The position numbers and the translations under genes are program-made. From the NCBI GenBank assembly GCA_020061125.1, contig JAGUYV010000446.1:1-22900 (forward strand): a stretch of DNA of 22,900 bases, given 5' to 3'. The notes beneath the pieces are model-generated. The model was given only the letters and a program-made list of their open reading frames with translations. It did no database searches and was not told the DNA's origin. This document shows positions 3,098 to 20,169 of the stretch, piece by piece. The stretch is from a bacterium (lineage in GTDB: Bacteria > UBP15 > UBA6099 > DSWB01). The first letter of the stretch is position 1, and each line of letters starts with the position of its first letter.

Positions 3098-4088
3098 TCC
3101 CTCCGGCCGCACCACATGCGAACTCGCCGGACTCACAGCTTGCGAACGCATCCGCGCGCACCTGGGCATGAAGCACGGCGCCGTGGGCGTGCGTTTCATT
3201 TTCGACGAACAGGAACTCGAGACCCAGGCTCTGCCCGCTCGCCCGGACAAGCCCTCGTGGTACTGCCAGATGGTGCTGCAGGCGGCTGGCGGCAAACAGT
3301 TCACGGCGCGCATGCAGGACATGTCGTGCCCCAATTCCGAGCTGTCCCTTGGCTTCCGCAAACCCAGGTTCGTGAACATCAAGACCGGTTTCGACAAAGA
3401 GACGCAGGCCGTGGTCATCGGCCCTCTGGAAAACGCGGATGTGATTCTGCTTGTGCTCAACAACCGCCAGGCCATGACCATGTCCATCCTCATGGGCGGC
3501 ATCTCCGCGGAGTTCCGCGGCGAGGTGGCCGTGTGCGGCGAGGCCACGGCCCAGGTGTACCACGAGGGCCTGCCCAACTTGAGCTTTCTGTGCAACGGCG
3601 CGCGCATGTTCGGCGGATACAAGGACAGCGAAGTCGTTCTGGGCCTGCCGCCCATCGCCGCGGAAAAGGTGGCCGAGCGCATCATGGCCCTGCAAAAAGC
3701 CGGAGGCGCGCTGTGCGGCTGCGTGGTCTCGGACCTGCCACGGGAGATCGTCGAGAACTTCAAAACCATAGGGTTCGAGAAAGGCTCGGATTACTTCTTC
3801 GGCAAGCTCTGCGGCTGGAGCGTGCGCATCTATCTGGACAAGGACGACACCGGGCGCATCAAGAACATTACGCTGTATGTGCTCGAAAAAGCTCCTCTGG
3901 ACGGAGTCCTGATCAAGCCGCCGTTCTCGACCCGCGAGCGCGAGGGCTGGGTGGACATCGTGGCAACCTTCGACACGCAGAGCATCGGCGCGGACCTCTA
4001 CTCCGGCGGCGACAAGCTGCGCAACACCTTCACCGAACTCATCTGCAATTACATCATCCGCACACAGGAAGGCGCATCCCAAAAGTGA
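3084..4088 (+). CDS. DUF169 family protein with C-terminal extension
   Basis: A 334-residue protein whose first ~215 residues match the DUF169 (COG2043) pattern as I know it: an opening AVGVRF, a conserved cysteine in DMSCPNSELSLGF (Cys82), VVIGPLENADV at 110-120, the NNRQAMTM segment, then a cysteine/glycine segment around Cys151 and NGARMFGGYKDSEVVLGLP at 171-189. The biochemical role of DUF169 is not established. Cysteines 61, 82, 151, 170, 211, 213 and 243 are notable for a sulfur cluster and might bind a metal or carry persulfide, but that is inference. Residues ~235-334 form an extra part I do not recognise. The ATG overlaps the E1 gene by 14 bp, and the stop overlaps the next gene's GTG by 4 bp, so it is embedded in the operon. 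No signal peptide or membrane helix is seen, so it is probably cytoplasmic. Confidence 0.82.
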   Translation: MSISDPSGRTTCELAGLTACERIRAHLGMKHGAVGVRFIFDEQELETQALPARPDKPSWYCQMVLQAAGGKQFTARMQDMSCPNSELSLGFRKPRFVNIKTGFDKETQAVVIGPLENADVILLVLNNRQAMTMSILMGGISAEFRGEVAVCGEATAQVYHEGLPNLSFLCNGARMFGGYKDSEVVLGLPPIAAEKVAERIMALQKAGGALCGCVVSDLPREIVENFKTIGFEKGSDYFFGKLCGWSVRIYLDKDDTGRIKNITLYVLEKAPLDGVLIKPPFSTREREGWVDIVATFDTQSIGADLYSGGDKLRNTFTELICNYIIRTQEGASQK

Positions 4089-5269
4089 ACAACCGTTACC
4101 GTGACCACATTATCATCAACGCGCTCATGCGCGGGGGCATCCTGCCGCCCGGAGTCAAAGAGGAACTTTTCGATCAATGGGGAGAGGTTGGCTACGCCCT
4201 GTGCCACGATTGCCTCGAGGGGCGCTCGTCGCTTTGCGGGAGGCCGCCCGTGAAAAAGCACCTTGAGCGCGTGGCCGCATTCTACGGCGGCGACGCAGCC
4301 GAGCACACATTCGGGTGCCGCACCGCCAAGTTCGCGGTCATGCGCGCCGTGCGCGAATGGCTCGACGCAAACCCCGAGCGCACGGATACCATCGTCGTGG
4401 ACGCCAACAGCCACTACAGCACCAACATCGCCGCGGAACTCAACAGCCTGCGCGTGGCCGAAGTGCCGCACAACGGGTATCCCACATACTCCATGTGCGC
4501 CGCAGGTTACGAGGAAAAAATCCTGGAGATCAAGCGCGAGACCGGGCGCCTGCCCGCCCTGGCCGTGGCCACGCACGCGGACCCCTATTACGGCAACCTG
4601 GCGCCCGTGGAGGACATCGGCCGCATCTGCCGCGAACTCGATGTGCCCTTTCTGGTGAACGCGGCCTACACCGGCGGCGTCATCCCCATTGACATGCGCG
4701 CCATGAACGCGGATTTCTTGAGCGTGTCCGCGCACAAGTCCATGGCGTCTCTGGCCCCGCTCGGATATGTGATCACGACCCACGAGTGGAGCGGCCGCGT
4801 GTTCGCAACCTCGGCGCAGCGCACCCAGTGGAGCGGCCGCGTGTTCGGCAAAAAGATCCCCAACATATTCGGCTGCAGCATCGGAGGCATTCCGGCCATC
4901 TCCGGCATGCTGTCCATGGACCATGTGGAAGAGCGCGTGAAGCAGTGGGATCGGGACATCGAATCCATCAACGCATTCGCGCGCGCCATGGAGGATATCC
5001 CGGACATCATGCTCCTGGGCCAGCGCCCGCACCGCCATCACCTGCTGCACTTCGAGACTCCGGGCCTGTGGGAAGCGCTCAAGCAGCAGGGCAAAAATGG
5101 GTTCTATCTCTCGGAGTTCATGATCAAAAACGGCGTTGTGGGACTGCACCGGGGCATGAGCAAGCACATCAAATTCAGCGTATACGGACTTTCGCAAGGC
5201 GAGCGGGACACGGTGCTGAACCTGTTCCGAGAAATCGCCGGAGCGAAGGTTCCGGCGGGAAAGGAATGA
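4085..5269 (+). CDS. SepCysS-like PLP-dependent enzyme (O-phosphoseryl-tRNA:Cys-tRNA synthase family)
   Basis: A 394-residue fold-type I PLP enzyme closely patterned on archaeal SepCysS, which turns phosphoseryl-tRNA(Cys) into Cys-tRNA(Cys) using a persulfide. Visible: CxxC at Cys40/Cys43 (GYALCHDCLEGR), a KFAVM segment at 82-86, VVDANSHYST at 104-113, the PLP lysine Lys218 in SAHKSMAS, and a third cysteine Cys264 in FGCSIGG. These match the three cysteines essential in the archaeal enzymes. The archaeal HGAREGKF motif reads FGCRTAKF here (76-83), which adds an extra cysteine (Cys78) and may change substrate. I chose GTG 4085 because it overlaps the DUF169 stop (GTGA) and gives the family length; ATG 4127 would cut the N-terminus. 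No SepRS is in the window, so the substrate may not be Sep-tRNA. The next gene starts within or just after its stop. Confidence 0.88.
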   Translation: MNNRYRDHIIINALMRGGILPPGVKEELFDQWGEVGYALCHDCLEGRSSLCGRPPVKKHLERVAAFYGGDAAEHTFGCRTAKFAVMRAVREWLDANPERTDTIVVDANSHYSTNIAAELNSLRVAEVPHNGYPTYSMCAAGYEEKILEIKRETGRLPALAVATHADPYYGNLAPVEDIGRICRELDVPFLVNAAYTGGVIPIDMRAMNADFLSVSAHKSMASLAPLGYVITTHEWSGRVFATSAQRTQWSGRVFGKKIPNIFGCSIGGIPAISGMLSMDHVEERVKQWDRDIESINAFARAMEDIPDIMLLGQRPHRHHLLHFETPGLWEALKQQGKNGFYLSEFMIKNGVVGLHRGMSKHIKFSVYGLSQGERDTVLNLFREIAGAKVPAGKE

Positions 5270-5274
5270 TCGCA

Positions 5275-5529
5275 ATGACGCAGGAAAGCAAAACATGGAC
5301 CGCGGACCGCGTGGTGGAACTCAAGAACGAGGTCTGTCCGTTCACATTCATAAAATCCAAGCTGGCCATAGAGGACATGGCGCCGGGCCAGGTGCTGCAA
5401 GTCGTGGTGAGCCACGCGCCCGCCGCGGAAAATGTGCCGCGCAGTTTCGAAAACGAGGGGCACGCCGTTCTGGGCGTGGACCAGACCGGCGAGCACGAGT
5501 GGACCATCACCGTCCGCAAAAAAGATTGA
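5275..5529 (+). CDS. TusA-like sulfur-transfer protein
   Basis: A small (84-residue) protein of the TusA/SirA fold. It has the beta-strand VVELKNEVCPFTF followed by a helix with KSKLAIEDMAPGQ, then the typical VLQVVVSH strand and a final EWTITVRKK strand. Cys21 aligns with the persulfide-carrying cysteine of the TusA motif CPxP, but the second proline is replaced (CPFT), as in divergent family members. TusA proteins pass persulfide sulfur between partners; here the likely partners are the E1-like enzyme, CysO-like carrier or SepCysS-like enzyme. Two starts are possible: ATG 5266, overlapping the previous stop as ATGA, and ATG 5275, with AAGGAA at 5261-5266 eight bases upstream. I prefer 5275. 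The next gene begins 14 bp after its stop. Confidence 0.85.
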   Translation: MTQESKTWTADRVVELKNEVCPFTFIKSKLAIEDMAPGQVLQVVVSHAPAAENVPRSFENEGHAVLGVDQTGEHEWTITVRKKD

Positions 5530-5543
5530 AGGATATCCAGATC

Positions 5544-6851
5544 ATGAAGGACAAACTGACCGGACTTGTATGCAAGGAATGCGGGGCGCAGTCCCCTATT
5601 GCGCCGCGGCACTATTGCGAAGAATGCTTCGGCCCGCTCGAAGTGGAATACAACTACGAGCGCATCAGGGAAGTCATGACGCGCGAGCACATCGAATACG
5701 GCCCCCTGTCCCTGTGGCGCTACCGGGATCTGCTGCCCGTGGAAACGGATCAGCCGGACAATATCGTTTCGTTGCAGGAGGGATTCACGCCTTTGATCCG
5801 CGCAAGCCGCCTGGGGCGCGAACTGGGGCTGAAAAATCTGTTCGTGAAGAATGACGCGGTCAATCCGACCTATTCGTTCAAGGATCGCGTGGTGGCCGTG
5901 GCCGTGAACCGCGCGCTGGAGTTCGGGTTCAAACATATCGCGTGCCCGAGCACGGGCAACCTGGCGTGCGCCGTGGCCGCGTACGGAAGCGTGGCCGGCA
6001 TGAAGACGCTCGTGTTCATGCCCGCGGATCTGGAGCAGGGCAAAATCGTGGGCGCGGGCATTTATCAGCCGTTCCTGGTGCGCGTGAACGGCAGCTACGA
6101 CGATGTGAACCGCCTGTGCAGCGAGATCGCGGAAACCATGAACTGGGCGTTCGTAAACATCAACATACGGCCCTATTATTCGGAGGGTTCGAAAACGCTG
6201 GGCTTTGAAATCGCCGAGCAACTGGGCTGGCGCGCGCCGGACCACATCGTCGCTCCCATGGCCTCCGGATCGCTGCTCACCAAAATTTACAAGGGGCTGC
6301 GCGAGTTCATGCAGATAGGCCTGATCCCGGAAGCGCGCGTGCGCATGTCCGGCGCCCAGGGGCAGGGTTGCGCGCCCATCGTGACTGCGGTCCAGGAGAA
6401 TTCGGACATCATCCGCCCCGTGAAGCCGGACACCATCGCCAAGTCCCTGGCCATCGGCAACCCCGCGGACGGGTATTACGCCTGGAAAATCATCAAACAG
6501 ACCGGCGGGTGCGCCGAAGCGGTGAGCAATGGGGAAATCATCGAGGGCATCCGCCTGCTGGCGCGCACCGAGGGCATTTTCACCGAGACCGCGGGCGGAG
6601 TGACTATCGCCGCGCTTGCAAGGCTCGCGTCTTCAGGCGCCATCGCTCCGGATGAACTCACCGTGGCCTGCGTCACCGGCAACGGACTCAAAACCCAGGA
6701 AGCCGTCACCGGCAGCATCGAGATGTGCGACCCCATCGAACCGGACATAGAGGCTTTTGACGAAGCCTACATCGAGGATTGGATGATCCGCTCCGCAACC
6801 GGCCTGTGCCCAACCAAAAACGGAACCGAAGTCCTGGCCCGCTGGACCTGA
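5544..6851 (+). CDS. Threonine synthase-like PLP enzyme with N-terminal zinc ribbon
   Basis: A 435-residue fold-type II PLP enzyme of the threonine synthase family. It opens with a zinc-ribbon-like pair of CxxC motifs (Cys10/Cys13 and Cys25/Cys28), as in archaeal-type threonine synthases. The PLP lysine is Lys113 in NPTYSFKDR, the phosphate-contacting loop is STGNLACAVAAYG at 136-148, and a glycine-rich ALARLASSG region lies near residue 370. Threonine synthase acts on O-phosphohomoserine; the same fold supports sulfhydrylases that use O-phosphoserine. As the last gene of a sulfur-carrier cluster with no other threonine genes nearby, it may use a sulfur nucleophile to make cysteine or homocysteine, taking the place CysM has in the mycobacterial CysO pathway. 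Plain threonine synthase remains possible. The gene is followed by 339 bp of AT-rich sequence, so the operon probably ends here. Confidence 0.82.
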   Translation: MKDKLTGLVCKECGAQSPIAPRHYCEECFGPLEVEYNYERIREVMTREHIEYGPLSLWRYRDLLPVETDQPDNIVSLQEGFTPLIRASRLGRELGLKNLFVKNDAVNPTYSFKDRVVAVAVNRALEFGFKHIACPSTGNLACAVAAYGSVAGMKTLVFMPADLEQGKIVGAGIYQPFLVRVNGSYDDVNRLCSEIAETMNWAFVNINIRPYYSEGSKTLGFEIAEQLGWRAPDHIVAPMASGSLLTKIYKGLREFMQIGLIPEARVRMSGAQGQGCAPIVTAVQENSDIIRPVKPDTIAKSLAIGNPADGYYAWKIIKQTGGCAEAVSNGEIIEGIRLLARTEGIFTETAGGVTIAALARLASSGAIAPDELTVACVTGNGLKTQEAVTGSIEMCDPIEPDIEAFDEAYIEDWMIRSATGLCPTKNGTEVLARWT

Positions 6852-7190
6852 TTCGCACGCGCCGCAATCCGTCATCATCGAGCAAATTGTTCTAATGCAA
6901 CTCATGTATATTAAATTCCGCATGCGTTTATGAAGAGACCGCAGCGGAATTTTACAATTTATTTTGTCATACATATTGATAAATTCGATAATTCCAATAT
7001 AGTAAAATAATCTACTTGAATACTCGAACTTTCAGATGCAAGATAGCAATTTGATTGATGATGAATGGCCGCACCTTGACATAATACATATATAATTCAA
7101 AAAAATCAATATAAAGCTACATTATTTGGCTTTTGCAATCTATGTCCCATTTGGGATTTTCATAAAATTGACATGGGAAAGGGGAAATCC
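6852..7190. other. AT-rich intergenic spacer upstream of carbonic anhydrase-MCP gene
   Basis: About 340 bp without a credible gene, far richer in A/T than the flanking genes. It holds a perfect TATAAT at 7091-7096 but no good -35 hexamer at the usual spacing (a TTGACA at 7076-7081 is too close). A 12-bp palindrome, TCCCATTTGGGA, lies at 7145-7156, about 35 bp before the start codon. I see no clear intrinsic terminator for the upstream operon. Confidence 0.6.
7087..7156 (+). promoter_or_regulatory. Possible promoter -10 and palindromic operator before the CA-MCP gene
   Basis: TATAAT at 7091-7096 would put a start of transcription near 7103, about 88 bp before the start codon. The palindrome TCCCATTTGGGA (7145-7156) would then lie in the leader. 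The 11-mer CATATATAATT at 7087-7097 recurs at 10048-10058 just upstream of the next gene. No -35 box fits, so an alternative sigma factor or chance in AT-rich DNA is possible. Confidence 0.25.
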
Positions 7191-9788
7191 ATGAAATTCG
7201 CATCAAGAGCAGTATTATGGTTATTATCGTTTTTATTATTAATTAGCCCTATTGTAAAGGCCTCATCAAGCGGAATCTCCATGACTCCAGATCAAGCCAT
7301 TGAAAAGCTCAAGCAAGGCAATGATCGGTTCGTGGCTGAAAAGAACGCCCACCCGAATCTGACCATGGGGCGCAGAGAGAGTACAGCCCAAAACGGACAG
7401 CAGCCGTTCGCCACCATACTGGGCTGCTCGGACTCCCGGGCGCCCGTGGAGGCGATTTTCGATCAGGGAGTGGGAGATCTGTTCATCATCCGCGTTGCGG
7501 GAAATGTGAGCGACACGGACGAAATCGGGTCCATCGAATATGGAGCCGGACATCTGGGCACGCCAGTTATTGTCGTGCTGGGACACACGCAATGCGGGGC
7601 GGTGACTGCTGTTGTCACCGGAGCAGAGGTTCATGGAAGCATTCCCAGGCTGGTGGATAACATCGGGCCTGCCGCGGAAGCAGCGCGGCTAAAGCATCCG
7701 GAACTCAACGGCAACGATCTGGTGCCGGCTGCGGTTCAGGAAAATGTATGGCAGTCCATTGACGACCTTTTCAAGGCCAGTGAAGAGATTCGCGGCCTTG
7801 TGAGCGAGGGCAAAGTCAAGGTTGTGGGAGCAATCTATGAATTGCATTCCGGCAAAGTGCAGTGGATAGGGGAACACCCCGGGCAGAGCCGTCTGCTTGC
7901 CTATGAGGGCGGCGCCAGAAGCCATGGAGATGGCGCACACGGCGCCGGGCAGGACCACGCCTCGGGAACTTCCGGGCACGATTCAGCTTCAGCCGCCGGA
8001 TCCCATGATCAAGCCGAATCCCACGAACAGGAAGCAACCGGCGGCAAGGGCATGTCCCTGGGCAAAATCGCAGGAATCGTCGCACTCTTCTGCCTGGCCA
8101 TCGGTGTCGCGGGATTCCTCATTTATTACTCCACCCGGCACGCCAACATCAAGGTCCGCGTATACGCAAGCACGGGATTCCTTGTGATGACCATGGTTGT
8201 CTTGTCCGCATTTGTCTTCGTGCTCCTGACGCGCATGGGGAACGAGTTGGAAATCATCGCAACAGACGATTTGCCGATCCTCAACAGCCTTGCCGATTCC
8301 GAGGCCACAATGCTGGAAATGGCCATCAGCATGGAACGGTTCATCCGCAGCGGGGATGAAGCCGAATTCCTGGCGTTCACGAACAACGGCAAGATCGTGG
8401 AAGAGGAACTGGCGGGCGCCATAGCAACGGCACAAGATGCGGCGAAAAAGACCCAGGGCGCGGAGAAGGCGACCTATGAGGACATCATTTCCAGGATCGA
8501 AAAGCTCGAAACAGAATTCAAGGATTTCGAAAGCACAGGCGCCGCATTGGACGAGGCTTTGAAGCGGAACGACACGGCCGGAGCCGAGGTGATTGAAGAA
8601 AAAATTGGGGAAGAAGAGCGTCAGATGCGGGCCGAGTTTAAGGAAGTGCTCAACGAGTTGCAGCACGAGACCCAGGCGCAGACGGAAAAGAGCCACGACA
8701 TGGCCATCGAGATCGAGGCTTTGAGCATGTCCATCACGATTTTCGCAACCATTCTGGCCATGCTGTTCGCTTTCCTGACCATACGCGCCATCATCGCCGC
8801 TCTCAACGAAATCACCACCACGCTCGGCGACGCCATATCGCAGATCGCGTCCGCGTCCACGCAGGTTTCTTCTTCTGGCCAGGTTCTGGCCGAGGGCGCG
8901 AGCGAGCAGGCTTCCTCTCTGGAAGAAACCACTTCCTCGCTCGAAGAAATGGCGTCCATGATACGGCAGAATTCGGAGAACGCGCAGCAGGCCGACTCGC
9001 TGGCAAAACAGGCCAGGGATGAAGCCATGAGCGGCAATGCGGAGACCCGGAGCATGAACGAAGCCATGCGCAAAATCAGCGAGTCCTCCCAGGAGACGCA
9101 GAAGATCATCAAGACGATTGACGAAATTGCGTTTCAGACGAACCTGCTCGCTTTGAACGCCGCAGTGGAAGCGGCGCGCGCGGGAGAAGCGGGCAAGGGA
9201 TTCGCCGTTGTTGCCGAAGAGGTCCGCAATCTCGCGCAGCGCGCCGGAGAAGCGGCGCGCAGCACCACCGAACTCATCGAAGGCTCCGCGGCCAACACCG
9301 TTCAAGGCGCCGAGATCGCAAAAAACATGGCGCGGACTCTTGAAAACATTGTGGCCGGATCCAACAAAGTCACCGATCTGATTTCTGAAATCGCCGCCGC
9401 TTCCAGGGAGCAGTCCCAGGGCATTGATCAGATCAATATCGCCATGGGGCAGATGGACGCCGTCACACAATCCACGGCGTCCAGCGCCGAGGAATCCGCG
9501 TCCGCGGCCGAGGAGCTCAACAGCCAGGTGGAAGCCGTTCAGGACATGGTCATCAAGCTCATTGCATTGACCGGCGCGTCGGCCGCATCCGCCAACCGGT
9601 CTTTGACAGCGGAAAACAAGCATGCGGTTGTTCATTCTTCGGGATCATTGACGCGTGGCAACGGATCGGCGGCTCACGGCAACGGCAGCCGCGCCCATCA
9701 GAGCATGCGTTCAACGGCAAAACGGGATTTGTACATTCCCGTGCACACCGCCGATTTCAAGGAAGACGGCGATTTCAAGGAATTTTAG
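7191..9788 (+). CDS. Exported beta-carbonic anhydrase fused to methyl-accepting chemotaxis protein
   Basis: An 865-residue fusion, numbered from ATG 7191, which has GGGG at 7181-7184 (ATG 7173 has no ribosome site). Residues 1-24 form a signal sequence. Residues ~30-240 are a beta-carbonic anhydrase with the zinc ligands Cys79 (CSDSR, with the Asp81/Arg83 pair), His132 and Cys135 (GHTQCGA) all intact, so it should interconvert CO2 and bicarbonate. A Gly/Ser/His-rich linker (241-287) leads to membrane helices at ~292-314 and ~324-347, joined by a positively charged loop. A periplasmic helical bundle (348-510), a third helix (512-536) and a cytoplasmic chemoreceptor domain (545-795) follow, with the hairpin tip [20 protein letters not shown] around 645-664. 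No clear HAMP domain is seen. The C-terminus DFKEF fits a CheR/CheB-tethering pentapeptide. The predicted topology places the enzyme in the periplasm. It is monocistronic, ending at a hairpin terminator. Confidence 0.95.
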
Positions 9789-13164: not shown

Positions 13165-13284
13165 GCAATCGCAAGAAGGCACGATTCGCTGCGTTATCGG
13201 CGCATTTTTTTGTTCATGAACCGCAGTTCTATTCGCTGCAAAAATGCGCCTGCTGCCTTGCGCCTCATGCCTTCTTGCGATTGC
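13165..13284. repeat. 120-bp nested inverted repeat
   Basis: The outer arms are a perfect 17-bp match: GCAATCGCAAGAAGGCA at 13165-13181 with its complement at 13268-13284. Inside lies a second perfect 11-bp pair: GGCGCATTTTT at 13199-13209 with AAAAATGCGCC at 13240-13250. The intervening arms are partly complementary, so the whole element could fold into one long imperfect hairpin of about 120 nt. It has no coding capacity. It resembles a small palindromic mobile repeat or a structured RNA; which is unknown. Confidence 0.6.
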
Positions 13285-13286
13285 CG

Positions 13287-13311
13287 CCCAAATTCCAACG
13301 GCGAATTTGGG
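13287..13311. repeat. 25-bp palindrome, copy 1 (arms CCCAAATTC/GAATTTGGG)
   Basis: CCCAAATTC (13287-13295), loop CAACGGC, GAATTTGGG (13303-13311). The same 25 bp recurs in exact reverse-complement orientation at 17140-17164. Confidence 0.75.
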
Positions 13312-13465
13312 GTTGTTGCGCGCGGGTGCGGATTTCCGCCCGCGTGTCTATAGACAACATTTCCCGGTCCTGTGTATAATGAACAGTCAGCCGCGCAGGC
13401 GGTTGTTTACTGATGCCCGCGACGCTTCCGCGCAGCAGGATGATACCGGTTCTGGAGGCAACACC

Positions 13466-14437
13466 ATGGCGCGTTTTCGGATCACAATCCTTGCAGTATT
13501 GCTGGTCGTTTTAAGCGGGAGCGCGGCGCGCGCCGTGGGCCAGGTGCCCCAGGTGAATTTGATACTGGACGACGGCGTGGTGCTGATTTACAAAGGCGCG
13601 GACCATGGGTTCAAGCCCGGCGATTTTCTGGATGTGGTGCGCGGCGGCCAGGTCGTGGGACGGCTGCAGGTGCTTGAGGTGTTCCCCACTTTCACGCGCG
13701 CAAAAATAGTGGGACAGGAAAAGACCATAGAGGTGTTTGATATCGTGGCCCCGGCTGCACCCGGCAGCGTGCTCGAAAAAAAGGAAAAACCCGCAGAAGA
13801 GAAAAAGGAAAAGAAAGAAGAAAAAAAGGAAGAGAAACCCAAGAAGGAACCCAAAGAAAAGAAGGAAGAAAAGAAGGAAGAGCCTAAGGCCGAGAAAAAA
13901 GAAGAGCCGAAAAAGCAGGAGCCGCAAACCGTGGCCGTGGCCGCGCACGACAAGTTCTACACCATCTCCATGGGCTACTTTTTTCTGAATCAGGATTTTG
14001 ACACCGATGTCGTGGACCAGCCCGGAACGCTGGGCTATGGCGTGGATTACTGGATGCGCCAGGGAGACAGCGGCGCGTACCTGGTGGCGGGTTATTTCGC
14101 ATCCAACCCCGAGATTAAGATCGCCACCACGGGAGCGCCCGCCACGATCAAAAACAAGTTCTGGAGTTTTTCCTTGAGCTATGTGATGGACAGCGGCGCG
14201 CCAGCGGGCAAAGGCAAGAGCGCCATGTATTACGGCGTGGGAGCGGCGTATCGCAGCCTGGAACTGGATTCCGAAGGACTCAACGCACCCCTGTTGACGA
14301 GCACGGAACGGGAGGTTAAGGGCACCGATTACCACTTGCTGCTGGGATACCGGTTCGGCAACGACGCGGAACTCAAGGGCCTGTACAGCTTCGATGAAAA
14401 ATATTACTCCATGTCTCTGGCCTTCAGCCTGAATTGA
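13466..14437 (+). CDS. Exported protein with Lys/Glu-rich tether and probable beta-barrel domain
   Basis: A 323-residue protein of unknown function. Residues 1-23 are a clear signal peptide ending in ARA. Residues ~28-98 form a small beta-rich domain (LILDDGVVLIYKG, HGFKPGDFLDVVR) like the SH3-type folds seen in FlgT-like envelope proteins. Residues 104-152 are almost only Lys, Glu and Pro in repeated KKEE/KKEEP blocks, expected to form a stiff charged helix or extended tether. Residues ~162-323 alternate hydrophobic and polar positions with many aromatics and glycines (YTISMGYFF, GYGVDYWM, AMYYGVGAAY, HLLLGYRF, MSLAFSLN), resembling an outer-membrane beta barrel that could anchor the protein while the tether spans the periplasm. 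GGAGG at 13454-13458 sets the start. The barrel assignment is inference from pattern. Confidence 0.7.
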   Translation: MARFRITILAVLLVVLSGSAARAVGQVPQVNLILDDGVVLIYKGADHGFKPGDFLDVVRGGQVVGRLQVLEVFPTFTRAKIVGQEKTIEVFDIVAPAAPGSVLEKKEKPAEEKKEKKEEKKEEKPKKEPKEKKEEKKEEPKAEKKEEPKKQEPQTVAVAAHDKFYTISMGYFFLNQDFDTDVVDQPGTLGYGVDYWMRQGDSGAYLVAGYFASNPEIKIATTGAPATIKNKFWSFSLSYVMDSGAPAGKGKSAMYYGVGAAYRSLELDSEGLNAPLLTSTEREVKGTDYHLLLGYRFGNDAELKGLYSFDEKYYSMSLAFSLN

Positions 14438-18068: not shown

Positions 18069-20063
18069 CTAAAGGGACAGGCCCGCGTTGTGGCCCGAAT
18101 GCACGGCGTCGAACGCCAGACCGATTTTCTTGGCGTCGCCCACGGTCACGACCTGAATGCCGCTGTCCGCGAGCGCGTCCCCGAGCGGGTTGTACGGCTT
18201 GGAGCCGATGGCAAGGACGATGGTGTCCGCGGGAAGGGTTTTGGCCCCGTCCGCGGTTTCCACTTTCACGCCGTCGTCGAGAATCTCCAGCACCTTGGTT
18301 TTTGTGAGCACCTTCACGCCCAGACGCCCGAGGTCCAGGGTCATGGTCCAGCGCGTGGATTTGCCGATGTCCTTGCCCACTTTGCCGATCATCTCCACCA
18401 GGGTCACATCTTTGGTGCCGTGGGTGCAAAGGTAGCGGATCTCCTCGGGCGTTTCGGCCTGGTTGACGAGAAGAAACTTTGCTGTGTCCGCGTTGATGGT
18501 TCCTTCCTCGGCGAGGGTGAGCGCGGTTTCCACGCCCACGGCGCCGCCGCCCACAACCACCACGCGCCGGCCCGCATGCGCTTCCCCTGACAGGTAATCC
18601 CACGACTGGATCACATGCGGCTTATCGCTTCCGGGAATGGGCGGCGCCAGCGGCACTGCGCCCGTGGCCAGAACCACAGCGTCGAACCCGCCCTGTTTGA
18701 TTTCGTCCGCGGTGACCTCATGGCCGATCTCAATTGTGATGCCCGCGTTGATGAGTTTCATCTCCAGATCGTCGGCGAGCATGATGAACTCCTCGCGTCC
18801 GGCCGGGGCCGCGGCCAGGTTGATCTGCCCGCCCAGGAAATCCTCTTTTTCGAAAATGGTGACATCGTGACCGCGGTCCGCGGCGGCCAGGGCCGCGCTC
18901 ATGCCCGCGGGTCCGCCGCCCACAACCGCGATCTTCCTCGGCTTATCCGCTTTTTCCACGGCTTCGAGTTCATGTCCGGCGCGCGGGTTGCACAGGCACT
19001 CCACGGGGCGAAGCTGGAACACATGGTCGAAGCACCCCTGCGCGCAGGCCACGCAGTGCAGGATGTCGTCCTCGCGCCCCTCGGCGATTTTGTTGACAAG
19101 ATGCGGATCCGCAATCAGCGCGCGGCCCATGCCGATCATGTCGCAGTAATCCGTGAGCAGAAGCTCGCGGGCGTCGTCGGGGTCGTTGATGCGGTGGCTT
19201 GCTATTACGGGCACGGTGAGGACTTCCTTCATGCGCCGGGCCAGGTACGCGTAGTTGGCGCGGGGCACGCCCATGGTGATCTGCGGGACACGGGCCTCGT
19301 GCCAGCCGACATTGATGCAGAACGCATCCGCGCCCGCGGCTTCGAGGGCCTTGGCGAACCGGCGCAGTTCGTCGCCGCGCATGCCGCCCTCCATCATGTC
19401 GTTGCCGTTCATGCGCACGATGATGGGATAGTCCGGGCCGCAGATTCTGCGCGTGGCCTCGATGACTTGAACGCCGAACTTCATGCGGTTTTCCTCGCTG
19501 CCGCCCCACTCGTCCTCGCGCTTGTTGGTGAGGGGCGACAGGAACTGGCTGATGAGGTAGCCGGTGCCGCAGAGCATCTCCACGGCGCTGAACCCGCCCT
19601 CTTTGCAGCGGCGCGCGGTCTGCGCGTACTTGTCAATGATGCCGGGAATCTCGTCCGCGGCCAGTTCGCGCGGGGTTTCGCCCGTGAGGCGCGAGGCGAT
19701 GGCCGAGGGCGCCACGGGCTTTTCGCCCTTGAGGAACATGCTGAACGCATAGCGGCCCTGGTGGTTGATCTGCGCGCACGAGCGCGCTCCGTGCTTGTTT
19801 ATGGCGCCGGACAGCCGGGCCAGGCCGGGGATGTATTTGTCGTCGTGCGCTCCGATGTTGGTGAACATGGACCCGAGCGGATCCACGGACACGAAGCCCA
19901 CGCAGATCATGCCCGTGCCGCCTTTGGCGCGCTCTTCGTAAAACGCGCAGATGCGGTCGCTGACTTCGTAATCCTGGCACATGTTCAGGTGCATGGCGGT
20001 CATATAAAACCGGTTGCGCACTTCTGTTTTGTTGATGGTAATGGGTTGCAGCAGTGGGTCCAT
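18069..20063 (-). CDS. 2,4-dienoyl-CoA reductase / NADH:flavin oxidoreductase (FadH type)
   Basis: A 664-residue FMN/FAD/4Fe-4S enzyme like E. coli FadH. Residues 1-330 form an Old Yellow Enzyme barrel with Tyr169 (CGTGYLISQF) and His255 (NVGWHEARVP) matching FadH's catalytic Tyr166 and His252. Cys337, Cys340, Cys344 and a cysteine at 356-358 (HCVACAQGC, VECLCNP) would hold the iron-sulfur cluster. An FAD-binding motif follows (VGGGPAGMSAALAAA, 381-395), then an NAD(P)H-binding motif (VVVGGGAVGVETALTLAEEG). Electrons flow from NAD(P)H through FAD, the cluster and FMN to a dienoyl-CoA. ATG 20063 was chosen because AAAGGAG lies just upstream and FadH-like sequence starts there (MDPLLQPITI). Other members of this fold reduce enones, but the downstream isomerase gene supports dienoyl-CoA. 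Confidence 0.9.
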   Translation of the reverse strand: MDPLLQPITINKTEVRNRFYMTAMHLNMCQDYEVSDRICAFYEERAKGGTGMICVGFVSVDPLGSMFTNIGAHDDKYIPGLARLSGAINKHGARSCAQINHQGRYAFSMFLKGEKPVAPSAIASRLTGETPRELAADEIPGIIDKYAQTARRCKEGGFSAVEMLCGTGYLISQFLSPLTNKREDEWGGSEENRMKFGVQVIEATRRICGPDYPIIVRMNGNDMMEGGMRGDELRRFAKALEAAGADAFCINVGWHEARVPQITMGVPRANYAYLARRMKEVLTVPVIASHRINDPDDARELLLTDYCDMIGMGRALIADPHLVNKIAEGREDDILHCVACAQGCFDHVFQLRPVECLCNPRAGHELEAVEKADKPRKIAVVGGGPAGMSAALAAADRGHDVTIFEKEDFLGGQINLAAAPAGREEFIMLADDLEMKLINAGITIEIGHEVTADEIKQGGFDAVVLATGAVPLAPPIPGSDKPHVIQSWDYLSGEAHAGRRVVVVGGGAVGVETALTLAEEGTINADTAKFLLVNQAETPEEIRYLCTHGTKDVTLVEMIGKVGKDIGKSTRWTMTLDLGRLGVKVLTKTKVLEILDDGVKVETADGAKTLPADTIVLAIGSKPYNPLGDALADSGIQVVTVGDAKKIGLAFDAVHSGHNAGLSL

Positions 20064-20169
20064 GGAACGCTCCTTTATTGCGGAATTATTCTCAATACTA
20101 TAACGGAATCCCGAATACTGATCCACATGGAATAAATGCAGGGATGGCGCAATGATGATGAAATATCAT

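Follow-up and report, generated by a model that had tools for sequence, protein, structure and literature searches.

To our knowledge, chemoreceptors are generally described as binding their ligands through non-enzymatic domains, and few dedicated receptors for CO2, bicarbonate or pH are known. The 4HB/HBM chemoreceptors (Tar/Tsr and McpS types) combine two membrane helices around a periplasmic helical bundle with a signalling hairpin and a CheR-type pentapeptide; a protein encoded by a bacterium of the GTDB lineage UBP15; UBA6099; DSWB01 (GenBank assembly GCA_020061125.1) resembles them in all these parts, but begins with a putatively exported beta-carbonic anhydrase (CA) and one more membrane helix, and no HAMP domain was detected in it. 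Its CA belongs to the same clade as the membrane-anchored exported beta-CAs (57% identical to L033 of Kapaibacterium and 53% to L042 of Ignavibacteria), with which it shares an N-terminal export-type sequence and a C-terminal membrane helix; those enzymes stop after the anchor helix, whereas this protein continues into a complete chemoreceptor (MCP). The Mycobacterium tuberculosis enzyme Rv3588c (CanB; 2A5V/1YM3) is alike in CA fold and active site, but is free-standing and without a receptor. The SulP transporter-CA fusions (L176, L180) also unite CA with a membrane protein; unlike in the CA-MCP protein, their CA is C-terminal to the transporter and no signalling domain is present. In fungal CO2 sensing, the Cryptococcus CA Can2 feeds a bicarbonate-responsive adenylyl cyclase, which is alike in its CA front end and in the bicarbonate relay proposed here, but the Can2 system consists of separate, cytosolic, eukaryotic proteins. 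The Helicobacter pylori bicarbonate/arginine chemoreceptor TlpA shares the response to bicarbonate, but has a dCache sensor and no enzyme (PMC8406319).

Among the papers listed by full-text searches of 5.4 million open-access articles, none describes a CA-MCP protein, so that in this literature the prospect, raised with the original prediction, that the architecture was already well described has no footing; on this open-access basis the architecture is called undescribed provisionally. One paper that pairs 'MCP' with carbonic anhydrase (PMC12918730) is unrelated and concerns circularly permuted GFP.

The window, meaning the whole stretch of DNA analysed, is one entire contig of 22,900 bases from a genome of 4.1 Mb in 513 contigs that is 79% complete. 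An uninterrupted frame on the + strand, which carries all features given below, spans 7173-9788 and encodes 871 aa from its first ATG; the CA-MCP fusion gene within it (7191..9788) comprises 865 codons and a stop. The ATG at 7191 is likely to be the translation start rather than that at 7173, since a good Shine-Dalgarno-like ribosome site, GGAAAGGGG (7176..7184), read directly from the sequence, lies 6 nt 5' of it. This supports the start originally proposed, and the 865-residue product reproduces the original residue numbering; residues are numbered here from the ATG at 7173 unless stated. The fusion gene stands alone in the window, with a PLP enzyme gene on one side and a C39-peptidase-like gene on the other. 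The window also encodes a class-V aminotransferase-like protein of 717 aa followed directly by a PALP enzyme gene (3116-6848), and two long frames without a Pfam match (13244-14434, 397 aa; 18615-20132, 506 aa).

Pfam matches to the protein are Pro_CA (residues 80-229, E 6.4e-38) and MCPsignal (residues 610-765, E 1.7e-44); the scan detected no HAMP domain and no Sulfate_transp domain, the latter absence leading us to reject a SulP-type bicarbonate transporter fusion. Helices were placed by hydropathy and an AlphaFold2 prediction of the monomer (pTM 0.39). In order, the predicted parts are a signal peptide (7191..7262, residues 7-30, placed by hydropathy; AlphaFold2 helix at about 6-31); the CA domain (7275..7892, residues 35-240, pLDDT mostly >90); a His-rich low-complexity linker (7893..8057, residues 241-295, pLDDT <50 over 247-294); TM1, the CA anchor helix (8058..8132, residues ~296-320, hydropathy and AlphaFold2); after a short loop, TM2 (8172..8228, residues ~334-352, hydropathy), the counterpart of an ordinary MCP's first membrane helix in a by-eye comparison with the N-terminus of a stand-alone receptor of the same order (L138); a periplasmic helical bundle of no Pfam family (8229..8738, residues 353-522, pLDDT ~88), with modelled helices at 366-393, 396-426, 430-464 and from 468 onward; TM3 (8739..8795, residues ~523-541, hydropathy and AlphaFold2); and the signalling hairpin (8853..9572, residues 561-800), with its turn at 670-674 in the model. 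The tail, disordered in the model, ends in DFKEF (9771..9785), by its sequence form a pentapeptide of the CheR/CheB-binding type, which has an aromatic residue at position 2, Phe at position 5 and acidic residues elsewhere (PMC7390727). Other receptors of the same genome and order have endings of the D-F-x-[DE]-[EDF]F type (DFNEF, DFGEF, DFDDF, DFKEF). The predicted topology is consistent with CA and bundle outside the membrane and the hairpin inside. Pfam, hydropathy and AlphaFold2 thus agree with the original prediction of a single chain carrying an exported CA, three membrane helices, a helical bundle and an MCP domain with a CheR-type tail. The joining of an exported, presumably active CA to a full chemoreceptor stands; the proposal that CA replaces the receptor's outer domain does not, because CA is added in front and the MCP retains its own periplasmic helical sensor.

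The exported CA is complete in its active-site residues and presumably active. Cys85-Ser-Asp87-Ser-Arg89 (7425..7439), invariant in alignment A1, supplies the first zinc ligand and the catalytic Asp/Arg pair, and His138 and Cys141 (7584..7595) supply the second and third ligands; these are exactly the Cys79, Asp81, Arg83, His132 and Cys135 named originally, counted in the longer frame. Rv3588c (2A5V) is the nearest solved structure by sequence (E 2.2e-34), and the modelled domain has the beta-CA fold, superimposing on it with a TM-score of 0.91 (normalised by the target) at 1.7 A. Type II (bicarbonate-regulated) beta-CAs are marked by a triad that is Trp39/Arg64/Tyr181 in the Haemophilus influenzae enzyme. 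In the alignment this triad is incomplete: the Arg and Tyr positions are retained, but the Trp position is Ile82 in the window protein and either Ile or Val throughout the fused domains. A second CA in the source genome, on another contig (218-aa frame, CWIGCSDSR motif), is of a different kind and has no obvious signal peptide; its presence suggests that the fused CA is probably not required for housekeeping. TM1 is explicable as the CA's own anchor, since some of its stand-alone relatives (L033, L040, L042, L057) end in a membrane helix; other exported CAs of this form are L055, L183 and L189.

The signalling half is evidently native to the lineage, with CA joined on in front, as indicated by its tree grouping and by its match to L138. 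In the signalling-domain tree, the window MCP clusters with seven receptors from its own genome and order (8 rows, support 100/100), the closest being L136 of the same order (70% identity). L138, a 4HB receptor of 587 aa that likewise ends in DFKEF, is 45% identical over window residues 360-854 in the genome search and 47% identical over residues 424-871 in pairwise BLASTP; the kinship of the bundle is held with less confidence, since the pairwise alignment starts inside it, at residue 424. The near receptors L138, L240, L241 and L242 are likewise without HAMP by Pfam. Apart from HAMP, which MCPs usually but not universally have, every MCP-defining feature tested was found: an MCPsignal hairpin, a sensor between membrane helices, CheA/CheW partners and a motor. 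The source genome has ten CheW-domain matches (in CheW and CheA proteins) in addition to FliG, and a flagellar chemotaxis pathway is therefore likely.

The same arrangement recurs in at least 16 other genomes, each with CA and MCP in a single frame. A scan of named genomes yielded one further fusion, in Planctomycetota SZAS-3 (L032; 1057 aa; CA, HBM, HAMP and MCPsignal), and 400 relatives of that genome, searched with an alignment of exported CAs and followed by reading of long frames, yielded 15 more of 1001-1487 aa (L157, L159, L160, L162-L173); the carriers appear to be mostly Planctomycetota. The gene is incomplete at three more loci: in L158 and L175 it reaches a contig end, and the CA-MCP of L177 (2758-6341) is broken over several frames, by a real break or a sequencing error. 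Two fusions have tandem CA domains before one MCP (L168, 3413-7873; L169, 4301-8257). Most of the related proteins have HAMP, unlike the window protein; the fused proteins retain a sensor of their own, which Pfam names HBM, 4HB_MCP_1 or CHASE3 in some of them, although between separate fusions the bundles have diverged too far to reveal a common binding site. Their linkers are of low complexity and variable length, and in L032, L157, L159, L160, L163 and L165 a stretch resembling LAATG-F--PE-K---R--FG--AGK lies between linker and TM1. A second round with 300 relatives of the genome of L171 (G479) returned only genomes already found. In a broad sample of 385 genomes (relatives of G069), 112 had CA matches and, as judged by frame length, no CA-MCP was identified among the frames that were read, a set to which the long frames of G700 (two, of 758 and 765 aa) and G673 (one, of 995 aa) do not belong; one member of this sample (G115) has a SulP-CA fusion. 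No relative was found in viral contigs, and no plasmid record covers 80% of the query, the ten matches listed being CA-only. Other arrangements include, at L181 (2324-6717, the same place as L023), a version in separate genes, in which a CA gene directly follows, in the same orientation, that of an MCP with a Tll0287-like sensor and another MCP gene lies upstream, and, in Leptolyngbya (L089, 2912-4576), HisKA, a receiver and a C-terminal CA in one frame.

These recurrences bear on the possibility that assembly or gene prediction fused two adjacent genes. The source assembly is fragmented and incomplete, and third-position GC is unequal between the CA part (0.59) and the MCP part (0.74), a difference that may, weakly on its own, also fit a later addition of CA. 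The window frame, however, is single and open without a gap, and the same order of parts occurs in one frame in all 16 other genomes, with a scaffold gap (147 N, inside the gene) only in L165. An artefact is therefore very improbable; assembly fusion, which the original prediction had named among its possible refutations, was rejected on these 16 further cases, and the joining of CA to MCP is far beyond chance.

Gene neighbourhoods place some fusions directly among chemotaxis genes. L171 lies in a cluster ordered cheA-cheW-[CA-MCP]-cheR-cheD-HDOD-cheY-cheX (cheY being receiver-like) and is the only MCPsignal protein found by a search of its genome; cheA and cheW are immediately upstream of L032; and cheR, HDOD and receiver genes lie downstream of the broken frame of L177. 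The HDOD-domain genes of these che clusters are at 8348-9217 (L171) and 7844-8713 (L177). No neighbourhood common to all fusions was found: cheA-cheW lies upstream of both L032 and L171, and other genes recur within small groups.

Inheritance of the fusion within the order was rejected, as Pro_CA is absent from all six same-order genomes searched. In the CA tree, the fusion label requires six changes, three of them forced by well-supported branches. AU tests rejected placing the fusions in one clade both for the signalling domain (p-AU 5.3e-5) and for CA (p-AU 6.6e-5; here L158, L175 and L177 were treated as fusions), values to be read in the light of groups chosen once the trees were known and of a long-branch warning in the receptor tree. 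The signalling stretches are of two lengths (238-240 versus 245-268 residues), and some cluster with unfused receptors encoded in the same genome. The simplest reading of these sequences is that CA and MCP were joined more than once, as would be expected if coupling CA to a receptor is useful. A single ancient fusion is rejected by the tests on both halves; a single join, with later losses and swapping of receptor halves, is less readily dismissed.

We propose, with a probability of about 0.5, that the fusion is a transmembrane chemoreceptor responding to inorganic carbon, or to the pH that this sets, in which the product of CA is read by the receptor's helical bundle. An anchor helix of its own and the flexible linker would hold CA outside the inner membrane, where it would catalyse CO2 + H2O <-> HCO3- + H+ close to the receptor; the product, either bicarbonate or protons, would be sensed by the bundle that lies between TM2 and TM3; and the signal would pass from the bundle through TM3 and the signalling hairpin to CheA/CheW and the flagellum. 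Without a catalyst, hydration of CO2 takes tens of seconds, whereas swimming bacteria compare concentrations over a span of seconds. Because the uncatalysed reaction is too slow, CA would let a receptor that senses bicarbonate or pH track CO2 in real time. The disordered, low-complexity, length-variable linker fits a product that diffuses better than it fits stiff mechanical coupling; retention of all five zinc and catalytic residues in 18 of the 19 fused CA domains favours turnover; and retention of the bundle favours a separate reading head. The bicarbonate response of H. pylori TlpA is a precedent for the signal (PMC8406319). Against a product relay, the accumulation of product near one enzyme molecule should be small compared with millimolar bicarbonate; a free CA in the periplasm would equilibrate that compartment just as well; and in one fusion whose receptor is still present (L167, 2731-5733) two zinc ligands of CA are replaced, Cys by Ser and His by Asn, while Asp, Arg and the third Cys are retained. 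L167 is likely to be a pseudo-enzyme receptor, and since it keeps the receptor despite losing two of three zinc ligands, catalysis would be dispensable in some fusions. The sequences themselves show the join, the export signal, the intact active site, the topology, the kinship of the MCP half, its recurrence and, in relatives, the surrounding che genes; catalysis, the ligand, the relay or coupling of the product and the sign of the response are what we infer.

The incomplete zinc site of L167 fits a direct binding sensor, in which the CA dimer would itself be the reading head, turnover would be incidental, and binding of zinc, bicarbonate or a proton would toggle an open and a closed state that is passed on via TM1 or contacts with the bundle. 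Both beta-CAs and MCPs are dimers, the closest solved relative is Rv3588c (2A5V/1YM3), and tandem CA domains occur in two fusions, all of which speak for such a sensor; yet about 50 disordered residues separate CA from TM1, a loop and TM2 intervene between TM1 and the bundle, and full catalytic residues in 18 of 19 domains go beyond the strict need of a mere switch, so that we consider direct binding unlikely. Less likely still is that the receptor merely carries CA to the pole or flagellar base with no signalling role: a flexible linker and a separate anchor would suit such a tethered enzyme, as would the stand-alone exported CAs that end in a membrane helix, but a stand-alone anchored CA would suffice for the same job, the AU tests reject one common origin of the fusions for either half, and L171, the sole MCP found in its genome, is the receptor of its che cluster. 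The broader proposal of a class of chemoreceptors with a built-in working enzyme, serving enzyme-coupled gas taxis, in which several lineages separately fused an exported CA to their own receptors and so read CO2 at the time scale of swimming, is advanced tentatively, at somewhat under even odds.

The bacteria that bear these fusions probably use dissolved CO2, bicarbonate or pH to guide their movement. The repeated fusion of enzyme and receptor suggests a direct bacterial route to sensing these signals, and the CA-MCP proteins offer a ready test system for the roles of enzyme, zinc site and linker in receptor output, with L167, whose fused CA is without an intact zinc site, as a natural control.
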